IMG/VR virus record: IMGVR_UViG_3300037497_000050
Span: 1-32,068 of that record
Reading direction: 5' to 3' (one strand)
Source of the DNA: a virus
Length of the DNA stretch: 32,068 bases
Made by a program: the position numbers and the translations under genes. Position 1 is the stretch's first letter; each line of letters starts with the position of its first letter. Under the pieces are notes generated by a model. The model worked only from the letters and a program-made list of their open reading frames with translations, was not told the DNA's origin and made no database searches. Shown here piece by piece: positions 5,688 to 30,864 of this stretch.

Positions 5688-6158
5688 TCACAAATCTGAC
5701 TCGGCCTCCCCCGCCAGTTGCCATAGGCCGCGGATGATCCGTTCTCGACCGTCCGGCTTCAGCTGGAATACGCACACGCCACCCTGCAACAGGATAGCAA
5801 TCCCCGCGTGGACACGGTACGGCGTCCGATAGTACACCACGCTCACGCCACTATTGAGGACGGCCTTCGCACATGGGCTACACGGAGCCACCGTCGTGAA
5901 CAGCCGCTTCTCGGGGACCGTGCCTGGCGCTTTCAGCAAGGCGTTGATCTCGGCATGCACGCAGCCGCACGGTGGATCGGGCGTGTCGCATTGGTTGGGC
6001 AGGCCAGCCGCGTTGCCGTTGTAGCCAATCCCGAGGACTTGGAGAAGTCCCGCATCCGTCACGAGCGCTCCAACGGCCTTCCGGCTGCAGAGCGAGCGCA
6101 GGGCGAGGACTTCAGCCATTCGCATGAAGGCTTCGGCGCGGGAGATGCGCGTCATCAT
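5688..6158 (-). CDS. dCMP deaminase-like (cytidine/deoxycytidylate deaminase family)
   Basis: A zinc-dependent deaminase of the CDA fold, most like phage deoxycytidylate deaminases, which convert dCMP to dUMP for dTTP synthesis. The catalytic HAE motif is at residues 68-70 (CVHAEINALL) and the PCSPC zinc motif at 92-96. Both are intact, and the length (156 aa) is normal for the family. The GYNGN near residue 45 and the GCVHAE spacing also fit. The ATG at 6158 is in an ATGA overlap with the upstream HTH gene and has a purine-rich GGGGAGGGG before it. The last residues lie about 45 bases upstream of the next promoter. A role in phage nucleotide supply is inferred from the family; substrate specificity (dCMP versus another cytidine form) is not proven. 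Confidence 0.85.
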   Translation of the reverse strand: MMTRISRAEAFMRMAEVLALRSLCSRKAVGALVTDAGLLQVLGIGYNGNAAGLPNQCDTPDPPCGCVHAEINALLKAPGTVPEKRLFTTVAPCSPCAKAVLNSGVSVVYYRTPYRVHAGIAILLQGGVCVFQLKPDGRERIIRGLWQLAGEAESDL

Positions 6159-12701: not shown

Positions 12702-13424
12702 ATGGCCACGAAGGAGGAGACTGAAGCTGCTGCCGCTACCGCCAAGGCAGCTCAGGAGAAAGAGGCCGCTGAGAAGGCGGCAGCTGAGGCATTGCTTGTC
12801 GAGCAGAAGGCCAAGGATGATGCGGCTCGCGTAGCGCAAGAGCAACAGCAGAAGGAGAAAGAAGTTACCGACCGTGCCGCGGCAACTGAGAGGGCCAAGC
12901 TGGAGGCACAGGAGTACAACTTGACGCTTGGGAAGGACTCGGCCCTGGACAATGCGGTCCTCGAGAAGACAGTCGCCATTGCGCGCGGACTGGGACTCTC
13001 ACAGAACGCGGCCCAGCGTATGCTCGAGCACTTCGAGGGCGTGACGGCCGAACGACTCACTGCGCGGCAGACAGAGTATGCTCCGGGTGGATCGTTCTGG
13101 ACCGAACAGGTGAAGACCTGGGAGAAGGCAGCGCTCGCTGATCCTGATCTTGGCGGCACGCCCGAGGTGCTTGCGGCGAACGTCAAAGAAGCGCAGCGCG
13201 TCTTTGATACCTTCTTCGATCCTGAAGTGAAGGAGTTTTTGGATGTCACGGGCTTCGGCTCACATCCACAGTTCCTGAAGGGGTTCGTGAAGTTGGCCAA
13301 GGCGTTCAGTGAAGGAACGCTGCGTCGGCCAGGCAGTGGAGCACCCGAAGGCGGTCGACGGGATGGTCCCGTTGAAGACCGATTCTACAAGAAGAAGAAA
13401 GATCTCTCAACCCCAAAGGAGTAA
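12702..13424 (+). CDS. Capsid scaffolding protein
   Basis: A 240-residue protein whose position immediately before the major capsid gene, and whose composition, mark it as a scaffold that organises capsid assembly and is then lost. Residues 1-70 are an almost pure Ala/Glu/Lys/Gln coiled coil (TEAAAATAKAAQEKEAAEKA). The middle (GLSQNAAQRMLEHFEGVTAE, FDPEVKEFLDVTGFGSHPQF) is helical. The C-terminus is Gly-rich and then basic (DRFYKKKKDLSTPKE), the usual coat-binding tail. The ATG at 12702 has GGAG six bases upstream, and the open frame extending to 12519 is rejected because it overlaps the Bbp19-like gene. No maturation protease is visible next to it. Confidence 0.8.
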   Translation: MATKEETEAAAATAKAAQEKEAAEKAAAEALLVEQKAKDDAARVAQEQQQKEKEVTDRAAATERAKLEAQEYNLTLGKDSALDNAVLEKTVAIARGLGLSQNAAQRMLEHFEGVTAERLTARQTEYAPGGSFWTEQVKTWEKAALADPDLGGTPEVLAANVKEAQRVFDTFFDPEVKEFLDVTGFGSHPQFLKGFVKLAKAFSEGTLRRPGSGAPEGGRRDGPVEDRFYKKKKDLSTPKE

Positions 13425-13429
13425 TGCTC

Positions 13430-14554
13430 ATGCGAACGTTCTTCACCCGCTGCGCAGCGCTCGGCCTGCTCGCACTTGTTGCGATCATGGCGATCAGCGT
13501 GCCAGCAACCGCGCAGGTGGTGCTGCCAAATAGCGACGTACTGCTGTTCGGTGTCACCGTCGGCTCATCGGTGCTGTCGCTCATGGACTGGGCCAAGCGC
13601 CTGGACCCTGACGGCAACACACCCGACATCGTCGAGATGCTCGAACAGACCAACGAGATCTTGACCGATCAGCTGTGGATGCAGGGCAACCTGCCCACGG
13701 GACATCGGGCGCACATTCGTACGGGTCTGCCGACCGTGTACTTCCGGCAGCTCAATACGCCCGTCCCGACCAGCAAGTCGACGACAGCGCAGGTTGATGA
13801 GCAGGCCGCGATGATGGAAGCCTGGGCTGAGGTCGACGTGGAACTGGCAGATCTCAATGGCAACACCGCCGCGTTCCGACTTTCCGAAGCCCAGGCGTTC
13901 ATCGAAGCGATGAACCAGAAGCAGGCCACCACGCTCTTCTACGGCAACGCAGGCGTGTCGCCGGAGGAGTTCACGGGCCTGTCCGCACGGTACTCGTTGT
14001 CCACTGCCGTCAACGGCCAGAACATCATCAAGGCTGGTGGCGCGGGTTCGGACAACATGTCGATCTGGCTCGTGGTCTGGGGTCAGAACACCGTGTTTGG
14101 TCTGTTCCCGAAGGGCAGCAACGCCGGACTCAAGCACGTTGATCACGGTGAAGTGACCGTGACGGGCACCACCGGAATCGGCGGAACTCGCATGCGTGCC
14201 TATCAGGACCAGTGGACCTGGAAGACGGGTCTCATGGTCAAGGACTGGCGCTACGCTGCACGTATCGCGAACATTGATACATCGCTCTTGGTCGGCAACG
14301 ACGCCAGCAGCGCGAACCTCACCATCAACATGGTGAAGGCCATCCATCGCATCCCGTTCCTGGGCATGGGCAAGGCCGCGTTCTACATGAACCGCACGGC
14401 CTTCCAGTTCCTTGACATCCAGCGCATGGCTGGTGTCTCGTTGGGTGGCGGCATCACGTACGAAAACGTGGACGGCAAGATCCTCCCGACGTTCCGCGGG
14501 ATCCCGATCCGTACTTCCGATGCACTCCTCGAGACCGAAGCAACGGTCGCGTAA
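13430..14554 (+). CDS. Major capsid protein (Bbp17/P22-coat-like) with N-terminal signal-peptide-like leader
   Basis: From about residue 50 the protein matches the BPP-1-type major coat: LMDWAKRLDPDG near 51, TNEILTDQLWMQGNLPTGHR, RTGLPTVYFRQLN, STTAQVDEQAAM, AFRLSEAQAFIEAMNQKQA and TLFYGN. It forms the icosahedral shell with the HK97 fold. The unusual part is the start. The ATG at 13430 has AAGGAG at the right distance. The first 28 residues (MRTFFTR, then a hydrophobic CAALGLLALVAIM core, then PATA before Q29) form a classic Sec signal peptide with an A-X-A cleavage site. A neighbouring ATG at 13424 and a later ATG before VPATAQ lack better ribosome-binding sites. Normal coat proteins lack such a leader, so its cleavage or use is unknown. 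Confidence 0.9.
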   Translation: MRTFFTRCAALGLLALVAIMAISVPATAQVVLPNSDVLLFGVTVGSSVLSLMDWAKRLDPDGNTPDIVEMLEQTNEILTDQLWMQGNLPTGHRAHIRTGLPTVYFRQLNTPVPTSKSTTAQVDEQAAMMEAWAEVDVELADLNGNTAAFRLSEAQAFIEAMNQKQATTLFYGNAGVSPEEFTGLSARYSLSTAVNGQNIIKAGGAGSDNMSIWLVVWGQNTVFGLFPKGSNAGLKHVDHGEVTVTGTTGIGGTRMRAYQDQWTWKTGLMVKDWRYAARIANIDTSLLVGNDASSANLTINMVKAIHRIPFLGMGKAAFYMNRTAFQFLDIQRMAGVSLGGGITYENVDGKILPTFRGIPIRTSDALLETEATVA

Positions 14555-14585: not shown

Positions 14586-15041
14586 ATGTACGTTGATGCA
14601 CAGACGACTCTGTGGGACGCAGCGGCGCTCACTGCCGATGCCGTTTCCACCAACGCCTATGACATGGGCGTCGACACCCGAGATGTCGGGATCGGCGAAC
14701 CACTGTCGGCGGTCATCACCGTGGACGTTGCAGCCGACGCCACCACGGGCGACGAGACCTACCGCTTTGACCTGATCCAGTCCACAGTGACTGCACTCAC
14801 TTCGCCTGACCTCCTCGCCAGTCACATCGTGACAGCGGCGCAGGCGACCGCGGGTGCATTGGCTGCTGGCACGATCGTGGTCATCCCGGTGCCCATGGGC
14901 CGCATCACCAAGCGGTACTTGGGTCTGCAGTTCGATGGTGGCGGCACCTCGCCCACCATCACCGTCACGGCTTGGATCACCCTGACCAGCATGGTCTCGG
15001 TGCCCAAGAAACACCCCGACGGCATCACGATCACGGGTTGA
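14586..15041 (+). CDS. Bbp16-like capsid cement/decoration protein
   Basis: A 151-residue beta-rich protein starting MYVDAQTTLWDAAALTADAV and continuing AVSTNAYDMGVDTRDVGIGE. It has alternating strands (LSAVITVDVAAD, YRFDLIQSTVTAL), a YLGLQF element and the final GITITG. This is the pattern of Bbp16-like proteins encoded just after the coat in BPP-1 relatives, thought to stabilise the capsid. The ATG has AGGA about eight bases upstream. It follows the coat gene by 31 bases, so expression is probably at similar levels. Confidence 0.8.
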   Translation: MYVDAQTTLWDAAALTADAVSTNAYDMGVDTRDVGIGEPLSAVITVDVAADATTGDETYRFDLIQSTVTALTSPDLLASHIVTAAQATAGALAAGTIVVIPVPMGRITKRYLGLQFDGGGTSPTITVTAWITLTSMVSVPKKHPDGITITG

Positions 15042-19607: not shown

Positions 19608-21394
19608 TGCCTCCCATGATTCCACGTCCTCGCCCATCGAGCACTACACAAGCACCTCTGCAGATTCCAGGTGCTTCACCCAACGCACCCACGGAAGCGT
19701 TCGGTGGCGGTGCCGCGGCCACGAACATTGATCTGCGTGACGTACAGCAAGTGGCTGAGCGTATCTGGGAGCGTCAACGGAACAAGGCCGATACAGCAGC
19801 CATCTTGGCGGGTGACAACGCGATTTGGGAAATCGAGAAAGAACTGTTCTACGATCCCGAGAAGGGTGCATTTTCCCGCCGTGGCCAAGACGCGCTGACC
19901 GCGTACGAAGAAGCGATGTCAGCCTACACCGAACGGGTGTCTGAAGTGCAGAGTGGCTTGACCACGCCACGGCAGCGTGAAGCGTTTGCACAACGTGTGG
20001 CATCGCGTCGGCAAAGCCTCGAAGGTCGCGCTGAGAACTACGTGGCTGGCGAAGTACAGAAGTACGTCGATGCTGAGACACAGTCGGCCCTTGATGCCAT
20101 CACCGAACGGGCTGCGCTTTCCTTCGATAATCCAACGGCGTTGAATGATCTGCTCAATGACAGTCGGGGGATCGTCCTCACCTATGGGCAGCAAAACGGG
20201 ATCAACGGGAAAGTGCTCGAGCGCAAGATGTTGGTCGAGACGAGTCGCTTCCATAGCGTGGTGCTCTCGCGCATGCTCGCACAAGGACAGGATCTCACGG
20301 CGGTTGATTATCTGAAGAACAACCGCGCTGAAATGACCGCGGCTGACAGCACCGAACTTGAACGGCAGATCGGCAAGACGAACATCGACAATGAAGCCCT
20401 GCGCGTCACGGCTGCGATCTGGACAACGCAGGGACCCAAGACGACGAACGATGCCATCAACACCAGTGACATGGAAGACGCTGTGCGCGAACGCTTTGAA
20501 GGACGTCCTGAACTGATCAGGGCAGCCATCAGTGACCTCCGCGTTCGGGCTGAAGCCTTCCGTGAGCAGACACGGCAACTCACTGCCACTAACGCTTCGG
20601 CCATCCTTGGACGTTTCAACAATGGCGAGAACCGCTTGGTCTTGATTCGCAGTCCTGAGTATCTGACGTTGAATGGCACCGATCAAGAACGCTTGAACTC
20701 CTACATGCTTGATCGTTTGACTTCGTTGACCGATCGCGCGAAGAAGGATCGCGAGAATAGCGGATTCCAAGCCTACTGGCGCTATTCGCGTCCTGAAGAA
20801 CTGAGTAAAATGTCTGAAGAACAGGTGCTGGCCCTTGAACCTGAGCTTGGACAAGAGCTGACTGCGGCACTGATGCGTCAGAAGCGTGCTGTCGTTGATG
20901 TTCGCGCTGCTTCCATTGACGCTGATCAGTTCAACTTCTTGGTGCGCGAAGCCGGATTCGATCCCACCGAGAAGAAGCAAGCGGTTGAACTGGGTGCCTT
21001 GAAGTATCACGTGGAGAACGCTATCGAACGCGCACAGCAAGCAGCAGGGCGTAATCTCAATCGTGAAGAGAAGAAGGTGCTCATGCAAGAAATCGTCAAC
21101 AACAAAGTGTGGGTTGATCGTTGGGGATTTGATCCAAACAAACCCTTGGCCACACTGTCAATTGATGAGGTTGGCAATGCGTACCTTCCGATGGCTGAGC
21201 TACAGCAACGTGACGCAGCCTTCGTGACGCAAGGACTGGCCTGGATGCGTACCGAAGGATTGCTCTACGCACACATCAATGATGCCAACGCACTACAGAC
21301 CGTAGCCGGACGTCGTCTCGAACGCGCATATGTGGCGCGGTTGCGCGGCGCGAGTACGGCTGAGACGCAAGCCATCCTCCGAGGCAACGAATGA
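19607..21394 (+). CDS. Internal virion/ejection protein, medium (gp15-like, 595 aa)
   Basis: The N-terminal ~40 residues are Pro-rich and flexible (MPPMIPRPRPSSTTQAPLQI). The rest is alpha-helical and charged, rich in Ala, Glu, Arg and Gln (ADTAAILAGDNAIWEIEKEL, RRQSLEGRAENYVAGEVQKY). This matches the middle ejection proteins of podoviruses, made before the giant one. No enzyme motif is seen. The start lies in TAATG and the stop in ATGA with the giant gene, so three proteins are coupled. By inference it helps build the channel through the envelope. Confidence 0.72.
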   Translation: MPPMIPRPRPSSTTQAPLQIPGASPNAPTEAFGGGAAATNIDLRDVQQVAERIWERQRNKADTAAILAGDNAIWEIEKELFYDPEKGAFSRRGQDALTAYEEAMSAYTERVSEVQSGLTTPRQREAFAQRVASRRQSLEGRAENYVAGEVQKYVDAETQSALDAITERAALSFDNPTALNDLLNDSRGIVLTYGQQNGINGKVLERKMLVETSRFHSVVLSRMLAQGQDLTAVDYLKNNRAEMTAADSTELERQIGKTNIDNEALRVTAAIWTTQGPKTTNDAINTSDMEDAVRERFEGRPELIRAAISDLRVRAEAFREQTRQLTATNASAILGRFNNGENRLVLIRSPEYLTLNGTDQERLNSYMLDRLTSLTDRAKKDRENSGFQAYWRYSRPEELSKMSEEQVLALEPELGQELTAALMRQKRAVVDVRAASIDADQFNFLVREAGFDPTEKKQAVELGALKYHVENAIERAQQAAGRNLNREEKKVLMQEIVNNKVWVDRWGFDPNKPLATLSIDEVGNAYLPMAELQQRDAAFVTQGLAWMRTEGLLYAHINDANALQTVAGRRLERAYVARLRGASTAETQAILRGNE

Positions 21395-24300
21395 GTCATC
21401 CCCCAGTTAGTCTCTTTCCTGATACGCCCACGTCGCCTATCAGTGACTCGTTGCGTCAGCCATCAGCCGCGCCTACACCACGTGGTCTGTCGCTCTTTCC
21501 AGATACGGTGCGTCAGCCCGAAGATGAAGCGTTGCGGCAAGCCCGACGCCTCAGCTTACAGACACCGCCCGATCAAGCGGCACGGGTGCGTCGGTTGCAA
21601 GCGGCCACGGGACTGCCACGTGAGCTGATCATGTCACGGATCGACGAAGTTGAATCGGCCCTTGAGATGGAGAACTTCGACGCCGCGAAGTATCGGCTCG
21701 CTGCTCCAGTGACGACAGCGTGGCTCAATGCAAATCCTGATAACATGTCCGTGGCCAGCGATGATCTCACGCAGCTACGCACGATTGAAGCCTACTTCAC
21801 CTCACTCCAACGTGGTGCCAGTCGCGGTCACCTCATGGGCGGCGAGTACACACAGCTCGGACAGAAACAACGTCGGCAAGCTGGCTACCTGTCTGCAGGC
21901 GAAGAACTTCGGCTGACCAACCTTGAACGACAGATCGCACGCCAGCCTGACGGTCGGAACTTCTTGCAAGATGTGCTGTACCATGGTGGTGAGTTCGCCG
22001 GACAGATGGTGCATATTGCCCCTGATGTCGCCACTGGATACATGGCGGGTGCTTCAGTAGGTGCAGCCATCGGACTCTTGGGCGGACCCATTAGCATTGC
22101 CACCGTGCCTATCACCTCACAGGTGGGCGGAGCCGTTGGAACCGCCTTTGGCGCTGCCAAGGGCACCTTCCGACTTGAAGCCGCGTTGGCATATCGTGAG
22201 TTGAAGCAGGTCACTGATGACAACGGCTTCGTGCTTCCCGAAAGCATTGCACGGAATGCCGCACGCGCCATTGGAACACTCAACGCATCACTCGAAGTCT
22301 TGTCACTCACTGTCGTTGCCGCGCCGTTCGTACAAATGGGGCAACGGTTCCTGCGCAGTGCCACGCGCGATGCGTTGACTTCAGCGACGGTGCGTCGCGC
22401 GTTGATGCGCATGGGCGTGTACTATGCCAAGGCGGCAGGTGCTGAAAGTGTCACTGAGATTGCGCAGGAACTGAACAACGTCGTGATTGGCGATCTGATG
22501 AAGGCCACTTCACAAGGTGATTTCCAAACAGTGTTCAATAGTCCAGCCGCTCGCGAAGCTATGGTGGAACGGTTGGCTGAAACGGCTGAGGCAACGGCCC
22601 AGGGCATGCTCTTGATTGGCTTGCCAGGGGCCAGTGTCACGTTGGCACACAACGTCTCTTTGGCGCGGCAGGCGCAACGACGGGTGGACTTCTTCACGGC
22701 GCTGGGTGAAGACATGGCTGAATCGAAATCCTTCCAGCGCTTGCCCGAAGGATTGCAGGAACTCGTCAAGCAGAAGACGCAGGGTACGGCGATTGAAGAT
22801 GTGTACGTGGATACGCAACCACTGATTGAATACTTTCAAGCACAGAAGATCAATCCCTTTGAAGTCATGGCACAAGTCCTTGAAGATCCGGCCGAGTTCC
22901 AAGCAGCCATTGATCAAGGACTGCCCGTGCGTATTCCAATGCATATTTACGCCACGAAGTTGGCGCCCACCGAGCACAATGCGTTCTTGGTCGAAGAGAT
23001 TCGCCTGGGCGGACCCGACGTCATGAACGCACGCATCGCCAAGGAAGCCTTGGAAGAAGCGGAGAGCTTGGCGCAGGACATTCCTGATGAAGAGTTGGTT
23101 GAAGAAGCCGAGTTTGAGCAGCAGACGAATCTGATCACTGAGCAGCTCGTGGCCACGGGCATGTCGCCCGAGAACGCTCGCGTGCAAGCACAGCAGCAAG
23201 CTGCCTTCTACATGACCCTGCAACAGCGCACGGGAATCGATCCGCGTACCTTGTATGAGGTGTCCATTGGTAGCCCCACCGCGGCACAAGACGTAGTGAC
23301 GGAGACGGCACGGACCCTTGCACAAGAGCAAGGGGCGATCCCGACGTTCGAACCCTCCGATCCACGCGCCTGGCCGTCACCACGACACAAAGAAGCGTTG
23401 CGTGAATACGTGCTGCGACTCGAGCAAGAGGCTGATCAGCCTGCCACGCAGAAGATGTTTCAGTGGGTGAAAGAAGTGGCGGATGCGGTTGAGCAAGCGG
23501 ACCATCCTGCTGCCGTCGCGGCCTGGGCCAAGGTGCCAGCTAACCTGCAGCGTTGGATTCGCGAAGCCTCACAAGCCTCGGGGGTGTGGCGCTGGGTGGA
23601 ACGTGGTGATGCCATGACCTTCTGGCAACGCACACGTTCCGCGCCCACGGCGTTCTTACCTGGCTTCTACTCCAAGGCTGAGGCGTTGGTGAACAAGGAG
23701 ATGGGTGGTCGTGCTTCACGGCAGCAGCTTGAACGACTCTTCGAGAAGACCAAGGCTGAAGAGCGTGAATGGCTGGGCATTGCCAACTTCTTGTCCACAC
23801 AAGAGACGTTCACCAAAGACGAGGTGTTGGCGCATCTGTATGCCAATCGTCTTTACATCAAGCATATCCATCCTGAAGCTGGACGCGATGAGCATCAGAC
23901 TGCCCTTTATCTCTATGATGCAGAACAACGTATCCGAGAAGAGCTGGCGGTTGAGTACGAGAATAAGTACATCAGTGAGCATGAAGGTGAAGATGAAGAT
24001 GGCAATGAACAACTTGAGCCACATAACTACTACAAGGTCAGTCGATTGGGACGCGAGCATCCTGAGAAAACCTTCCCGACCTACAGAGATGCTCAAGAAT
24101 ACGTGATGGACTTCGTCGAGAATGATCCCGATTTGGCGGATCGCGTGAGTGATCAGGCCCACGAAGAGGTCGAACCGCCGGATCATGTTAGCTACGAAGA
24201 TTACACGCTGCCTGGTGGCACCAACTACCAAGAGAGCGTGTTCACGTTGCCCAACAACGATAATGTCTTCGAAGATGGGCACTTCAGCGAGCGCGTCGAT

Positions 24301-27300
24301 GGCAATGACTTTGCCCACGCTCGAACGAAGGACCGTCTGGTGCAAGTCAGTCCATCCGAGTCGCTGTCTGTCTTGTTCGTGGAAGAGATCCAAAGTGACT
24401 GGCATCAGCAAGGACGCGACCGCGGCTATGAACAACCTGGTGATGCTAAGAAGTTGGAGTTGATGCAACGGATTGAACATTTTAGGTCGTCAGAACGCGA
24501 TCAAGCAGTGCATATGACGGCGCTACGGCTGGCAGGATGGGACTTCGATTGGAGCGAAGCGGAAGGGGAACAATGGCTGAATCTGTTTGCCGACAAGGTG
24601 TCGGTGGCCGGCAACTTCGCTGATGCGTTGCAACGTGATCGAGACAATCCAAGGCTGAGGCGTTGGTGGGATCAATTTGATTCCATGCCAAAAGAGTTGC
24701 AGGATCGGGTCGAAGAGACGGTGAGTACGATATTGGCGTATCGTGCCTTGGTCGCTGAACGTACACGCATCAGTCGTCTGCTTCCCAACGCGCCCTTCAA
24801 GAAGACCTGGCATGAGTTCGTCTTCAAGGCGATGTTGCGTGAAGCGGTGCAACTCGGCAAGGACGCCATCGGGTGGACAACGGGTGGTCAGCAGAATGCG
24901 CGATATTCTAAGAGTCTTCGTGGTAACAGATTTATTTACACTCAAGATGGACGATTAACATCGTACAGTGGTGTAGAGTCGTTTGTTTCTACGGGTGAAA
25001 ACAATGTGGGGTGGAGTCGAGGTCGCCTTGGAATCGAAGAAGACTTTGGTAAGGAGTTTGCTGATAAGCTCTTTGCTGATGCTCCTGCAGATTACTTTAA
25101 ACTAGACATGGATGTTATTCGTCCTGACTTAACCTTAAACTTACCCGAATCCATTGAGATTGGCGGTTCGGGCATGCGTGGCTTCTACGATAAGATCCTC
25201 GTCGATTACGCCAACAAACTCGGCAAGAAGTATAGCGTCAAGGTTGAGTCGTTGCCAGTCAATACCTCAACTTCAACTCTTGAGCATCCTGATCTAACCG
25301 AACAGGTCCACGTCCTGCGCATTCCTAAGGAAATGCAGGCTGCTATCATGGAGCAGGGGTTTGAGCTGTATCAGCGTCGGAAGCCACCCATCAATGTACC
25401 CATCAGGACGATTGGTCCTACACGCCTGATTGAAGGCTTTTTCTCGAAGGCTGAAGTCTTAACGCAGAAAGAGATGGGTGGGAAAGCTAGTCGTGAGCAA
25501 CTCAAGGCCATGTTCGACAAGATCAAGACCGATGAGCGCGAGTGGCTCAGCATCCCGTCCTTGCTCGAATCACAGGAGGTCTTCACCAAAGCTGAGGTGA
25601 TGGATCATCTGCGTCAGCATCGGCCACGCATGGATTGGGTAGAAGAGCTGGAGCCTGATCAAGAGAGGGGCGATGAGGAGACAGCCGTAGAAATAGTACA
25701 AGAAGAAGCGTTCGACAAGTTCTTGAAAATAAACCCAGCCCGAACGGTCTTCACGGTAGCTAAGATGGGTCCAGGATTTCCAGCCAGGACCTTTGCGAGG
25801 CCCGATGATGCTTACAAATACATCGAAGATGCCATTGATGTCTTACCCGAGTTTCAAGAACGGATACAATCAGAGATGGGTCCATCAAACTTTGAAGAGC
25901 ATACGTTAGAAGGATCACGCAAAACGTATCGCGAAGTCGGGATTACGTTGCCTGATCTGCCCAACGACTTCTTCGCTGAAGGACATTTCGTAGATCATAA
26001 TCTGATGGTGCACGCGCGTGTGACTGAACGTACCGTGCGAGGGACAGAGGTCTTGTTGATCGAAGAGTTGCAAAGTGACTGGCATCAGCAAGGTCGAGAG
26101 CAAGGATACGAGACAGGTGAACCTACTTCACCTGAAGAAAAGGTTAAGCGTCAAGCCTTATTGCGTGAACGGCGGAAACTCGAGGTACAGATCGCAGCCA
26201 TCAACAAGGAACAAAATAAGCTATATAAAGAGCTGTTCAAGCGCAAGGTCCTTCTAAAGACCATTCAAGAGCGTAGCTATCACGCAACAGTGCAGGTTGA
26301 TAACTATGAGCAGCTGATCATTGACACTGGATCAAATGGCTTTAATCTGAAAAGAACCACTGGATGGGCCTCTTTGTCTAAAGAAATGAAAGATCGGGTG
26401 CAGGAAGGCATTGAGCGCGAAAAGGTAGTACGTCCATTAGGGGATCGAATATACAAGATCAATAGAATACTTGAAGAGCATCGTCGGGTGTCATCTGTGC
26501 CCAACGCGCCCTTCAAGAAGACCTGGCATGAACTGATGTTCAAGGCGTTGCTAACCCGTGCCGTGCAGCAGAACAAAGAGGTGCTGGCGTGGACGACGGG
26601 GACACAGCAAGAAGAACGGTGGGGGGAGAGGGGACTGAAGACGTTCTACGACACGATCCTCACCGGATACGCGAACAAGTTGGGTAAGCGATATGGCGTG
26701 CAAGTTGAGAAGTTGCATGTTGGACGCTACTCGGTACACAGCCTGAAGTTGACGCCCGAGTTGAAGACAGCGATTGCTGGTGAAGGACTCGAATTGTTCC
26801 AACCTGAACAAGAAGGAGCGGCTGAGACACCACGCGGCAAGATCAGCTTCAAGGGACAAGCCGTCAACATCCAGCTCTTGGAACAGGCGAACTTCAGCAC
26901 CTTCCTCCATGAGTCAGGACATCTCTACTTGTCGATGCTCACGAAGCTCGTGCATGAAGGCGGAACGTCGGGGCAAGTGGCGAACGATCTCCGTCGCTTG
27001 CAACGCGCGATTGGTGCTGAACCAGGGGCGACAGACTACACGGAAGAGCAACATGAACATATGGCACGATTGACTGAAGCCTACTTCCGCCAGGGTAGGG
27101 CACCGTCGGCACGCTTGAAGGCTGCGTTCTTCCGCTTCCGGACGTGGCTGCACGCGCTCTATCGGAGCCTGACCGAACTAGGCGTCACGTTGACACCCGA
27201 AGTGAGCGACGTCTTTGATCGCATGTTCGCCACCGATCAAGAGATCGCGGCACAGCAACAGGAAGCTGAGGCCACGCCCATCTTTACCACAGCGGCTGAT

Positions 27301-30300
27301 GCAGGCATGACCGATGCAGAGTTTGCCGTGTACAAGAAGTCGATTGAGAAAGGACATCAGCGTGCGGTCGAGCAACTGCAGACCAAGCTGATGCGTGATG
27401 CTGAGAAGCAGTTCAAGGCTGAGTATCGCGAGGCCAAGCAAGAGATCATGGCCGAAGTCACGGCTGAGATCAACGCCCTGTCAGGGTATCGCGCACTCAT
27501 GGCGTTGCAGCTGGGATTGCAGTCTGATGGCACGCCACTGGAGACGCCGATCAAGTTGGATCGCGCTGCTATCGTGGCTGAGCGTGGTGAAGACTTCTTG
27601 TCCGAACTCCCATCGCCACGGGTCCACGCCGATGAAGGTGGCGTCAGCTTGCAAGAGGCCACCGAGCTACTGGGCTTCACATCGCCTGACGCGCTCTTGA
27701 TCGCCATCAGCACATTGCCGCCACGCAAGGCGGCGATCCGCGACGAAGTACAGAAGCGATTGAAGGACAAGTTTGGCGATCTCCTCACTGATGGGCGGTT
27801 GCCCGAGGCAGGCAAGGCCGCGGTCTTGAACGCCCATCGCGAAGACATCATCCAAGCCGAGTTGCGCGCCCTACGGTCCAAGCAGCGGCAAGTCGAGAAG
27901 GCCGTGAAGCAGAAGGAAAAGGTCTTGACCAAGGCAGCGAAGAAAGAGGCCGACGTCAACAAGCGCTGGGCGGATGCCGAACAGAAGATGGCCGTTGCCG
28001 TCGAGCGCGGGGCCAAGCAAGCCGAGATCGATGCCTTGCAGGAAGCTCTGCAGAGCCTGGAGACGGAGAAGGAGAAGGCGTTGAAGGACGCACAGCGTGA
28101 GCGTGAGTATGAGCGTCGCTTCCTTGACGCCGAAGCCAAGCGTGCTGAGGCCGAAGGCGGAGCACTCGTGGCGGGAACGCTCGATGGCTCAGTCGGACGG
28201 CGTGAGGCACGCGAGCAGGCGCGCATCCGCATCAGTCATCTGAAGATCATGGATATCAAGCCACATCGGTATTGGACCGCGGCACGCAAGGCATCGCAGG
28301 CCGCGATCGTGGCCACAGCGAAGAAGGACTATGTGACCGCGGCCAACGCCAAGCAGGCTGAGCTGCTGGCCGTGGCGTTGTATCGTGAGGCCACGCGCGT
28401 GAAGGAGAAGGCCGAGTTGGTGCGTCGTCGGACACAGCGGCTCCAGTCCAAGGGTGTCCAAGAACGGCTGGGCAAGTCGGGGCAAGAGTATCGTGAACAG
28501 ATCAACGCGATGTTGGAGCGTTTCAGTTTTGCACCCATCTCGAACAAGGCGGTCAAGCGTCGGGCCAGCCTTGCGGCCTTTGTCAAGTCACAGACTGAGA
28601 AGCACTTGCCCGTCAATATCCCTGAAGAGCTGTTGGCCGATGCGTTCGTCACGCCATGGAAGGACATGACGATTGATGAACTGACGATGGTGGATGAAAC
28701 CCTGCAGCACATCGATCATCTGTCCAAGCTCAAGATACGCATGCTCCGCCGTGACACGGCGAAGAGCTTCGCGCAGGCCCGTGATGAGATCACAGCACGG
28801 ATTAAGGAAAAGGCGACGCAGACGATCGCACCTGAGTTGGAAACGCGCCGTCCATCCGACGCTGTCAAGCGGATGATCAAGGGCTTCTTCGCGGCACACC
28901 GGAAGTATGCGCATATCGTGCGTGAGATGGACGGATGGGAAGACGGTGGCCCACTTTGGGAACTGTTGGTGCGTCCGCTCAATGCGATGACGGATGAGAA
29001 GACGACCCTGACGATTGACATGACGGAGAAGTTGTTCAACATCTTCCACTCGGCCTTCCCTGATACGTCGATGAGCGGGATGCATAAGCGCGTGGCGATG
29101 CCGTCGTTGGATAACATGCCCCTGTCACGGCAGGGCAAGCTGATGATGGCGTTGAACTGGGGCACGCTCGACAATCGTGAGAAGCTGCTGAGTGGCTTGT
29201 CGTTGTCGCTGAAGCGTCCCGTCAGTGAGAATGATGTCTGGGCGGTGCTGGACACGCTCACCGCGCCTGACTGGGATTTTGTGGAGCAGGTCTGGGCCTA
29301 CGCGGATTCGCACTGGAAGCCCATGAAGGCGTTGGCTGAACGTTTGGATGGCGTGGCACCCGAGAAGCTCGCGGCGGCACCCGTCAACACGCGCTTCGGA
29401 ACCAAGACGGGCGGGTACATGCACATCAAGTATGACGACCGACAATCCACGCGCGTGCGACAGAACGTCCTGGATCGGCAGGCGAGCAAGACGCTTCGCG
29501 CAGGCACGACACGCGCGAGCACCAAGGCCGGATCACGCAATGAGCGCGTCACTGATGTGCAGTTGCCGTTGCGGTTGGACTTTGGCGTGCTCTTCGAGCA
29601 TCTCGAAGAAGTGGCCCTGGACTTGACACACACTGAAGGCTTGATCGATCTCAACCGCCTGTTGCGCAGTGATGAAGTTGAAGACGCCATTCGCAGTCAC
29701 TATGGCGAGGCCAAATACACGGCTTTGCTCGACGCCCTGCGCGATGTCGCCGCTGGTGAGGTGCCAGCGCATAACTGGTTTGATCACTCACTCAACTGGG
29801 TCCGACGCGGCTCCAGCCTCGCGGCCCTGGCCTGGAATATGGGCACCGCGGTGCTGCAGCCCCTGGGGCTCTTCAACTCCATCGTGCGCCTCGGCGGTCC
29901 CATCAAAGGGACCTACTGGATCGCGAAGGGCATCAAGCGGTGGCTCAGCGATGCCACGACGATGGAAGATGGTGCGGCCTGGGTCCAAGAAGTCTCGTCC
30001 TTCATGAAGCATCGCCATCGCACGTTCATGCGCGAGATTGATGAAATCCGCAATCGCGTCGGCGTAGCGAGTAATAACATCCATGTCTATGTCAGTTTCG
30101 GGATTGAGAAGGTGACCCTGGAGAAAATGAATCTGCAGGACCTCCAGGATTCCTTCTTCTGGATCATCGCCAAGATGCAGGTGGTGGCTGATATGCCCAC
30201 CTGGCTGGGCGCGTACGAGAAGGCGATGGCTGACAACAGTGACGAAGCACGCGCCATTGCCTTGGCCGACCAAGTGGTCATCGATTCACAGTCCACAGGG

Positions 30301-30864
30301 CAGCTCAAGGATTTGGCCGCGGTGCAGCGCGGCAATCCCGCCCTGAAGCTCTGGGCCAACTTCTACACCTTCTTCAGCGCGGCTTGGCAGCTGCACGTGG
30401 AAGCCGTCAAGAAGACCGACTTCAAGTCCCCCGTCAGCATGGGACGCCTCGCGGGTGACCTGCTCCTCCTCTCCGTGATTCCCGCAATCATGGGCAAGCT
30501 CATGCGCGATGCGCTCCGTGGTGACGAAGAAGAAGACGATCTCGCGAAGGCGCTCGCGGCGGAAGTCGCCTCGTATCTCGCCAACATGCTCGTGGGCGTT
30601 CGCGAACTCACGGGCGTCCTCAACGGGTTCTATGGCTACGGAGGTCCTGCCGGAGGACGTATATTTAACGAAGCAGGAAAGCTCATTCAGCAAGTGCAGC
30701 AGGGTGTTGTGGATTTGGCGCTCTGGAAGGCGTTGAATCAAGCGGGTGGGATTCTCTTGCATTATCCAGCAGCACAGATTCAACGCTCGGTACTTGGATT
30801 TCACTCGTTCATGGAAGGTGAAGCCTCACCGTTGGCGCTACTCTTTGGACCTCCGAGGAACTAA
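21391..30864 (+). CDS. Giant polyvalent ejection-type protein (3157 aa) with duplicated module and zinc-peptidase motif
   Basis: It occupies the place of T7 gp16 but is far longer. In order: a Ser/Pro-rich N-terminus; a Gly/Ala-rich hydrophobic segment, residues about 213-262; more helices; two copies of a module starting FYSKAEALVNKEMGG (about 759) and FFSKAEVLTQKEMGG (about 1350). Each copy contains E-E-x-Q-S-D-W-H-Q-Q-G-R (998 on; 1558 on) and later NAPFKKTWHE. A HESGH motif (1840-1844; HExxH zinc-peptidase signature) follows in FSTFLHESGHLYLSML. Then come a long Lys/Glu/Ala coiled coil (about 1970-2380), and a C-terminal polyvalent-type domain (ALADQVVIDSQSTGQLKDLA near 2957) ending in hydrophobic and acidic patches. 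Such polyvalent proteins travel with phage DNA and act in the new host; exact activities here are inferred. Confidence 0.85.
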   Translation: MSHPPVSLFPDTPTSPISDSLRQPSAAPTPRGLSLFPDTVRQPEDEALRQARRLSLQTPPDQAARVRRLQAATGLPRELIMSRIDEVESALEMENFDAAKYRLAAPVTTAWLNANPDNMSVASDDLTQLRTIEAYFTSLQRGASRGHLMGGEYTQLGQKQRRQAGYLSAGEELRLTNLERQIARQPDGRNFLQDVLYHGGEFAGQMVHIAPDVATGYMAGASVGAAIGLLGGPISIATVPITSQVGGAVGTAFGAAKGTFRLEAALAYRELKQVTDDNGFVLPESIARNAARAIGTLNASLEVLSLTVVAAPFVQMGQRFLRSATRDALTSATVRRALMRMGVYYAKAAGAESVTEIAQELNNVVIGDLMKATSQGDFQTVFNSPAAREAMVERLAETAEATAQGMLLIGLPGASVTLAHNVSLARQAQRRVDFFTALGEDMAESKSFQRLPEGLQELVKQKTQGTAIEDVYVDTQPLIEYFQAQKINPFEVMAQVLEDPAEFQAAIDQGLPVRIPMHIYATKLAPTEHNAFLVEEIRLGGPDVMNARIAKEALEEAESLAQDIPDEELVEEAEFEQQTNLITEQLVATGMSPENARVQAQQQAAFYMTLQQRTGIDPRTLYEVSIGSPTAAQDVVTETARTLAQEQGAIPTFEPSDPRAWPSPRHKEALREYVLRLEQEADQPATQKMFQWVKEVADAVEQADHPAAVAAWAKVPANLQRWIREASQASGVWRWVERGDAMTFWQRTRSAPTAFLPGFYSKAEALVNKEMGGRASRQQLERLFEKTKAEEREWLGIANFLSTQETFTKDEVLAHLYANRLYIKHIHPEAGRDEHQTALYLYDAEQRIREELAVEYENKYISEHEGEDEDGNEQLEPHNYYKVSRLGREHPEKTFPTYRDAQEYVMDFVENDPDLADRVSDQAHEEVEPPDHVSYEDYTLPGGTNYQESVFTLPNNDNVFEDGHFSERVDGNDFAHARTKDRLVQVSPSESLSVLFVEEIQSDWHQQGRDRGYEQPGDAKKLELMQRIEHFRSSERDQAVHMTALRLAGWDFDWSEAEGEQWLNLFADKVSVAGNFADALQRDRDNPRLRRWWDQFDSMPKELQDRVEETVSTILAYRALVAERTRISRLLPNAPFKKTWHEFVFKAMLREAVQLGKDAIGWTTGGQQNARYSKSLRGNRFIYTQDGRLTSYSGVESFVSTGENNVGWSRGRLGIEEDFGKEFADKLFADAPADYFKLDMDVIRPDLTLNLPESIEIGGSGMRGFYDKILVDYANKLGKKYSVKVESLPVNTSTSTLEHPDLTEQVHVLRIPKEMQAAIMEQGFELYQRRKPPINVPIRTIGPTRLIEGFFSKAEVLTQKEMGGKASREQLKAMFDKIKTDEREWLSIPSLLESQEVFTKAEVMDHLRQHRPRMDWVEELEPDQERGDEETAVEIVQEEAFDKFLKINPARTVFTVAKMGPGFPARTFARPDDAYKYIEDAIDVLPEFQERIQSEMGPSNFEEHTLEGSRKTYREVGITLPDLPNDFFAEGHFVDHNLMVHARVTERTVRGTEVLLIEELQSDWHQQGREQGYETGEPTSPEEKVKRQALLRERRKLEVQIAAINKEQNKLYKELFKRKVLLKTIQERSYHATVQVDNYEQLIIDTGSNGFNLKRTTGWASLSKEMKDRVQEGIEREKVVRPLGDRIYKINRILEEHRRVSSVPNAPFKKTWHELMFKALLTRAVQQNKEVLAWTTGTQQEERWGERGLKTFYDTILTGYANKLGKRYGVQVEKLHVGRYSVHSLKLTPELKTAIAGEGLELFQPEQEGAAETPRGKISFKGQAVNIQLLEQANFSTFLHESGHLYLSMLTKLVHEGGTSGQVANDLRRLQRAIGAEPGATDYTEEQHEHMARLTEAYFRQGRAPSARLKAAFFRFRTWLHALYRSLTELGVTLTPEVSDVFDRMFATDQEIAAQQQEAEATPIFTTAADAGMTDAEFAVYKKSIEKGHQRAVEQLQTKLMRDAEKQFKAEYREAKQEIMAEVTAEINALSGYRALMALQLGLQSDGTPLETPIKLDRAAIVAERGEDFLSELPSPRVHADEGGVSLQEATELLGFTSPDALLIAISTLPPRKAAIRDEVQKRLKDKFGDLLTDGRLPEAGKAAVLNAHREDIIQAELRALRSKQRQVEKAVKQKEKVLTKAAKKEADVNKRWADAEQKMAVAVERGAKQAEIDALQEALQSLETEKEKALKDAQREREYERRFLDAEAKRAEAEGGALVAGTLDGSVGRREAREQARIRISHLKIMDIKPHRYWTAARKASQAAIVATAKKDYVTAANAKQAELLAVALYREATRVKEKAELVRRRTQRLQSKGVQERLGKSGQEYREQINAMLERFSFAPISNKAVKRRASLAAFVKSQTEKHLPVNIPEELLADAFVTPWKDMTIDELTMVDETLQHIDHLSKLKIRMLRRDTAKSFAQARDEITARIKEKATQTIAPELETRRPSDAVKRMIKGFFAAHRKYAHIVREMDGWEDGGPLWELLVRPLNAMTDEKTTLTIDMTEKLFNIFHSAFPDTSMSGMHKRVAMPSLDNMPLSRQGKLMMALNWGTLDNREKLLSGLSLSLKRPVSENDVWAVLDTLTAPDWDFVEQVWAYADSHWKPMKALAERLDGVAPEKLAAAPVNTRFGTKTGGYMHIKYDDRQSTRVRQNVLDRQASKTLRAGTTRASTKAGSRNERVTDVQLPLRLDFGVLFEHLEEVALDLTHTEGLIDLNRLLRSDEVEDAIRSHYGEAKYTALLDALRDVAAGEVPAHNWFDHSLNWVRRGSSLAALAWNMGTAVLQPLGLFNSIVRLGGPIKGTYWIAKGIKRWLSDATTMEDGAAWVQEVSSFMKHRHRTFMREIDEIRNRVGVASNNIHVYVSFGIEKVTLEKMNLQDLQDSFFWIIAKMQVVADMPTWLGAYEKAMADNSDEARAIALADQVVIDSQSTGQLKDLAAVQRGNPALKLWANFYTFFSAAWQLHVEAVKKTDFKSPVSMGRLAGDLLLLSVIPAIMGKLMRDALRGDEEEDDLAKALAAEVASYLANMLVGVRELTGVLNGFYGYGGPAGGRIFNEAGKLIQQVQQGVVDLALWKALNQAGGILLHYPAAQIQRSVLGFHSFMEGEASPLALLFGPPRN
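23641..26811 (+). repeat. Tandem-duplicated coding module inside the giant gene
   Basis: Module copy 1 spans about residues 751-1330 and copy 2 about 1343-1807. Both contain, in order, the SKAE..V.KEMGG segment, DEREWL/EEREWL, QE.FTK.EV, V.EE.QSDWHQQGR, NAPFKKTWHE and a YANKLGKKY/YANKLGKRY strand. Two stretches are identical at the DNA level (24391-24413 with 26071-26093, and 24784-24815 with 26500-26531). Elsewhere they have diverged, so the duplication is old or is maintained in patches by selection or conversion. Copy 1 carries an extra ~85-residue insert. Confidence 0.8.

Follow-up and report, generated by a model that had tools for sequence, protein, structure and literature searches.

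A recurrent signal-peptide-like leader on the major coat protein of BPP-1/epsilon15-type phages

The shells of tailed phages and herpesviruses are taken to assemble from soluble coat subunits. A membrane-inserted coat precursor is found in M13, whose procoat (the pVIII precursor) carries a signal peptide that can be cleaved off, then a short loop on the outside and a further hydrophobic segment, with its C-terminal part in the cytoplasm. Procapsids of SPP1 and T4 start to form at the cytoplasmic membrane, on its inner face. In SPP1 this needs the portal protein through a mechanism that is not known, and the way in which some heads form at the membrane is described as unresolved (PMC13212656). 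A signal peptide has also been placed on a coat by design: T7::PhoE, in which the PhoE signal peptide is fused to gp10A, shows normal growth and burst and carries lipid (PMC5157022). The closest described coats to the one analysed here are Bbp17 of BPP-1 and gp7 of epsilon15 (PF20911; PDB 3J4U and 3J40), both of which start directly at the coat domain. In BPP-1, the N- and C-termini of the coat both lie on the outer shell surface, and the coat is not cleaved (PMC3863775).

Here we describe a coat gene of this family in an uncultivated virus contig of 32,068 bases, the whole of which we call the window, from a short-tailed phage of the BPP-1/epsilon15 kind. Unlike Bbp17 and gp7, its product begins with a leader. 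The coat family is already known and the leader is the new part; in the open-access literature we found no description of a tailed-phage coat with a natural signal peptide.

The coat gene of the window and its leader

The coat open reading frame spans positions 13430-14554 on the plus strand and encodes 374 residues. Pfam GP7 (PF20911) covers residues 59-373 (E 8.6e-124), BPP-1 Bbp17 (PDB 3J4U) matches from residue 48 (E 1.8e-91) with 48% identity over the coat domain, and epsilon15 gp7 (3J40) and 8CJZ are further PDB matches. The AlphaFold2 model has a mean pLDDT of 84.5, mostly above 90 in the coat part, and its best Foldseek match is a viral major capsid protein (TM 0.65/0.74). The model, this match and the solved homologues all indicate an HK97-type fold. 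The product is a Bbp17/gp7-type major capsid protein. It lies in a gene order of terminase (PHROG 2), portal (PF12236), scaffold-type protein (PHROG 458), coat (PF20911), cement (PF21190) and tail proteins, of which the order portal, scaffold, coat and Bbp16-type cement is shared with BPP-1 and epsilon15. Elsewhere in the window, positions 21391-30864 (plus strand) form one open frame of 3157 residues, nearly one third of the contig, with an LPD22 domain (Large polyvalent protein domain) near the N-terminus; it probably encodes an internal virion protein that is injected. At 5688-6158 on the minus strand, opposite to the structural genes, lies a dCMP/cytidine deaminase-like gene (PF00383, E 7.7e-15).

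Ahead of the usual family start, the window coat has an extension of 41 residues. Residues 1-28 read MRTFFTRCAALGLLALVAIMAISVPATA and are followed by Q29 (Table 1). The sequence-only reading had proposed that this is a Sec-type signal peptide, preceded by a well-spaced ribosome-binding site and followed by coat homology that begins well inside the frame. The n-region, the core and the A-T-A/Q29 junction are all present where it placed them, the ribosome site AAAGGAG lies at a suitable distance from ATG 13430, and the homology begins between about residue 43 (by tblastn) and residue 48 (in PDB 3J4U). A start at the alternative ATG 13424 would still carry the leader and adds Met-Leu only. Read directly, the window leader has no lipoprotein (SPase II) signal, as Cys8 precedes the core and no lipobox Cys follows it, and no Tat signal, as it has no RR motif.

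Table 1 Features around the start of the window coat gene.
Feature	Position	Strand	Basis or remark
Scaffolding-type protein gene, 240 aa, highly charged, no signal peptide	12702..13424	+	PHROG 458 E 2.3e-29; position corresponds to Bbp18 in BPP-1
Ribosome-binding site AAAGGAG, serves leader start	13415..13421	+	Sequence; 8 nt 5' of ATG 13430
Alternative in-frame ATG, overlaps scaffold stop (TAATG)	13424..13426	+	Sequence; 2 nt from ribosome site
Putative signal-peptide leader M1-A28	13430-13513	+	Q29 = 13514-13516
n-region MRTFFTR, net +2	13430..13450	+	Translation; Arg/Lys among the two best-conserved leader columns family-wide
Hydrophobic core C8-S23	13451..13498	+	Best 15-mer Kyte-Doolittle mean 2.76; AlphaFold2 helix 3-22
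c-region V24-A28 with signal-peptidase-I-type site A26-T27-A28/Q29	13499..13513	+	Sequence; -1 Ala in 29/35 non-redundant leaders aligned there
Linker Q29-D36, no Lys/Arg	13514..13537	+	Structure model of low confidence here
Weaker second hydrophobic stretch V37-L51, runs into coat start; candidate return membrane segment	13538..13582	+	Best 17-mer Kyte-Doolittle mean 1.72
Bbp17/gp7-type HK97-fold coat domain, from about residue 42, including stop	13553..14554	+	PF20911, PHROG 212, PDB 3J4U and 3J40
Bbp16-type cement (decoration) protein gene, no signal peptide	14586..15041	+	PF21190 E 4.7e-15; PHROG 427

In the AlphaFold2 model, the N-terminal helix is followed by a disordered linker (pLDDT below 50 at residues 27-29 and 38-44). 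A helix and flexible linker ahead of the coat would also suit an assembly prodomain that acts like the delta domain of HK97 and is removed by a phage head protease instead of the host signal peptidase, and the upstream gene of relatives is often annotated as a protease or endoprotease. We consider this reading very unlikely. The HK97 delta domain lies inside the shell, whereas the N-terminus of the BPP-1 coat, which is uncleaved, lies outside. The upstream protein of the window reads as a charged helical scaffold, and the anatomy of the leader is that of a signal peptide. For a system of the delta-domain type one would expect a head protease and a coat prodomain in place of a scaffold; the window has a separate scaffold-type gene, which PHROG labels as a protease and for which Pfam gives no protease match. 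The name "protease" or "endoprotease" is given to the gene at 12702-13424 by PHROGs and by several GenBank records of relatives. This label looks doubtful, because the protein is highly charged and a Pfam search of it gave no protease match.

Leader-bearing and leaderless relatives

Relatives were gathered by searches seeded with the window, with its closest relative L008, and then with further matches. A first compilation held 149 distinct coats, 33 with a leader; the final set holds 206 distinct coats and the window (207), of which 47 including the window carry a leader, a ratio that is not a prevalence, as leader-bearing coats served as seeds in several searches. Apparent full-length matches in L044, L062, SPN1S and MZH0603 were false, since tblastn had run into the upstream gene or the stretch before the annotated start, and were rejected.

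L008, the closest relative, is 73% identical to the window, and MRTFLSRAWPIVLLIPLLLITNMLVAQGAPAG precedes its coat. The same architecture of leader and coat is found on independent contigs, so that the leader is recurrent and not an accident of one contig. Within the 149-coat set, the N-terminal extension is bimodal, with about 0 or 32-57 residues and no intermediates, and it is bimodal among the 207 coats too. Ordinary relatives start at the coat itself with the pattern M-A-T/A-L-x-x-x-x-L-T-L-x-D-W-A-K-R and have their own ribosome site; the aligned Met is their start and is mostly Gly in leader-bearing coats. A leaderless M-A-(T/A)-L start is the norm of the family and no condition of homology, and the window departs from this norm.

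Signal-peptide prediction was run by a fixed rule that asks for an uncharged hydrophobic 10-mer, a net positive n-region and a small-x-small motif after the core. This rule passes 34/34 leader-bearing coats, 0/113 leaderless coats and 26/625 other open frames with a ribosome site; 13 leaders found later were judged by eye. The proposal of a Sec-type signal peptide on the coat is strengthened by these results and by the 46 further leader-bearing homologues, their start sites and the selection on their leaders. The comparison with other Bbp17-like N-termini that the sequence-only reading had called for gave a divided answer, as these 46 relatives have the leader and the others start at the coat.

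The two classes are mixed on the coat phylogeny. On a quick maximum-likelihood tree of 143 coats with the leader columns removed, leader presence or absence changes at least 15 times, 11 of them forced by well-supported branches; an earlier coat tree gave 11 changes, 10 of them so forced. Sister coats can differ in the leader: L175, with a leader, and L180, without one, are 89% identical, and the pairs L011/L160 and L171/L174 differ likewise at 87% and 83% identity. Before the start of the leaderless sisters we found no leader remnant. The scattered pattern, the differing sisters and the lack of remnants point to the leader as an optional module that is gained and lost repeatedly or exchanged by recombination. 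As sisters with 87-89% identical coats do without it, the leader is not needed for assembly as such.

All 16 complete or near-complete relatives have one coat gene per genome, and the leader therefore sits on the only source of coat. This bears on a further explanation, in which the whole coat is truly exported to the periplasm, or an abundant, fast-folding protein with a signal deliberately jams the host secretion channel. Taken by itself, the leader should direct export through Sec, but full export would leave no coat for heads because the coat comes from a single gene. In addition, the scaffold and cement proteins read as lacking signal peptides, and packaging requires cytoplasmic ATP. Export or jamming is, in our judgment, highly improbable.

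Leader-bearing members all come from uncultivated contigs. Among isolate phages we saw no leader in 91 matching records, with starts inspected in 12, and these 12/12 annotated reference records start directly at the coat domain. No leader-bearing prophage was present in samples of 385 and 398 proteobacterial genomes, where the prophage coat matches lie in open frames that, at 332-353 aa, cannot hold both a leader and a coat. A comparison of whole genomes (8 leader-bearing against 7 leaderless) gave no leader-specific partner gene; the best candidate was present in 4/8 against 0/7, with open-frame calling being rough at high G+C. G+C is at least 60% in 42/45 leader-bearing contigs and in 34/128 leaderless ones. 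This bias may be a lineage or host effect, and G+C alone makes neither a ribosome site nor a signal peptide. Limnohabitans phage DC33 (L224, PQ492659.1) is filed in its record as Inoviridae yet encodes a Bbp17-type coat, which marks it as a tailed phage.

Start codon use and selection on the leader

A GGAG-type site is present at the leader start in 40/47 leader-bearing genes and at the coat start in 132/146 leaderless relatives. In contrast, within 6 codons of where the coat ordinarily starts, none of the 47 leader-bearing genes (0/47) offers a start codon preceded by such a site. Because the ribosome-site score entered into the choice of leader starts, the 40/47 is somewhat too favourable, and the 0/47 is unaffected. 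The earlier observation that no good ribosome site precedes a later start holds near the ordinary start of these 47 genes, and the option left open with it, that only an internal start is used, is disfavoured. That option would have the virion coat made from an internal start, with the leader start silent or yielding a minor form. An ATG does occur within 6 codons of the ordinary start in 9/47 leader-bearing genes, for example in L008 and L069, and leaderless relatives start exactly there, but at the exact position most leader-bearing genes, the window included, have no ATG. Together with the missing ribosome sites and the selection on the leader at the protein level, this makes an unused leader quite unlikely. 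The sequence-only reading had named relatives with no leader and a strong ribosome site at the coat start as evidence against it. Such relatives are literally present in numbers, but their genomes carry no leader at all, which makes the module optional and not unused where present.

For close pairs with usable synonymous signal (L078/L079, L068/L069, L068/L093, L069/L112, L093/L112, L175/L179 and L175/L196), dN/dS is 0.10-0.43 in the leader and 0.05-0.14 in the coat; more distant leader pairs were too diverged for this measure. Judged from these codon comparisons, the leader is translated and constrained, but loosely, like signal peptides, which shows purifying selection on it as a protein with signal-peptide anatomy.

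Across 37 aligned non-redundant leaders, conservation is highest in two columns, an n-region Arg (27/37) and the -1 Ala (29/35), the latter being the most conserved of the core and c-region columns; position -3 is mostly Leu, Val or Ile. We note that a permissive A-x-A scan found sites in 35/37 leaders against a mean of 34.7 for shuffled c-regions. As it did not discriminate, the scan was dropped as evidence, and the cleavage-site argument is drawn from column conservation only. This conservation suggests cleavage of the leader by signal peptidase. A good site is missing in a few leaders (the L068 group and L273). The leaders of L068, L069, L093 and L112 have an extended basic n-region (MFTDPKRRLSWG...), lack a clear signal-peptidase site and appear more like an uncleaved signal anchor.

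A possible membrane-inserted coat precursor

The linker between leader core and coat has 3-28 residues and contains 1.9% Lys/Arg (16/848) against about 10% in the coat, and the leader n-regions hold 59 Lys/Arg and 3 Asp/Glu in total. Residues 2-12 of leaderless coats are also poor in Lys/Arg (0.3%), so part of this pattern is generic. The linker often leads to a second hydrophobic stretch, which passes into the start of the coat, with a best 17-mer Kyte-Doolittle mean of 1.63 in the family against 0.36 in leaderless coats. This stretch is weak: the mean is at least 1.6 in 21/37 leaders and about 1.04 in the L068/L069 group, and a hairpin is therefore not universal. A basic n-region, an uncharged linker and, past the second stretch, Asp-Trp-Ala-Lys-Arg agree with the positive-inside rule for a hairpin with a cytoplasmic coat domain. 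Given the external N-terminus of the BPP-1 coat, the leader would stick out from the shell, so that a membrane could hold the shell from outside as it grows, and a membrane tether at this end is geometrically possible.

The existence of the leader, its frame, its start and the selection on it are shown by the sequences; from these features we infer how the leader would act, including its insertion, topology, cleavage and assembly site. During coat synthesis it would insert the coat N-terminus into the cytoplasmic membrane, with the basic n-region remaining inside, the core spanning the membrane and the short Lys/Arg-poor linker with its A-x-A site looping outside. The second hydrophobic stretch would return through the membrane, which would leave the HK97-type coat domain to fold on the cytoplasmic face together with scaffold, portal and terminase. 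Subunits attached in this way could be built into the procapsid from outside, because the N-terminus of this coat family is on the outer shell face. The particle would be freed by signal peptidase trimming or by simply leaving the membrane. Trimming of the leader and membrane-anchored assembly, both raised by the sequence-only reading, would fit the data; capture of the leader from a secreted protein, which it raised too, may or may not be its origin. We give a probability of about 0.5 to this main reading, namely that the leader is real, is translated and serves as an optional membrane-targeting module of the phage's only major coat, which probably inserts the N-terminus as a procoat-like hairpin with the coat domain in the cytoplasm and is later trimmed or released.

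Insertion of this kind would work like that of M13 procoat, and the membrane-associated head assembly would resemble that of T4 and SPP1, but the proposed mechanism is homologous to neither. The window coat has an HK97-type domain and no homology to pVIII, which is a 50-residue helix extruded through the membrane and not a shell protein of HK97 fold. In SPP1 the membrane link depends on the portal protein and not on a signal borne by the coat. T7::PhoE is likewise a short-tailed phage whose major coat bears a signal peptide; it is man-made, whereas the arrangement of the window is natural, recurrent and equipped with a linker and a second hydrophobic stretch. We favour N-terminal membrane insertion because the BPP-1 coat termini are external, SPP1 procapsids start at the membrane and T7::PhoE makes phage.

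The main rival to hairpin insertion is that the leader is retained uncleaved on the outer shell as a decoration that does not serve export but binds membrane lipid or forms a hydrophobic layer, perhaps aiding persistence in soil or water. T7 remains viable when its coat bears the PhoE signal peptide, and it then acquires phospholipid and withstands low pH better (PMC5157022); the BPP-1 coat N-terminus is external, and optional presence suits an accessory trait. However, few leader positions are conserved as well as the -1 Ala, for which a mere lipid binder has no need, and one would expect hydrophobic helices on several hundred subunits to aggregate unless they are shielded. We regard a retained decoration as doubtful. 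Extending hairpin insertion further, we propose tentatively, as a picture that may well prove wrong, that some tailed dsDNA phages make their only HK97-fold coat as a membrane protein precursor: it would form a procoat-like hairpin trimmed by host signal peptidase, heads would be assembled on or wrapped by the cytoplasmic membrane and possibly lipid-coated, and the module would switch between close relatives.

For annotation, these genes are a warning that a signal peptide on a coat gene need not mean a wrong start. Phages with this natural, optional and putative membrane signal on the coat, and close relatives without it, form matched pairs for testing membrane templating of a capsid. The same pairs bear on whether a tailed phage can carry lipid and what benefit it gains. 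Read from the genomes, an optional signal-like tag on the coat suggests that some shells may be built at, or coated by, the cell membrane.
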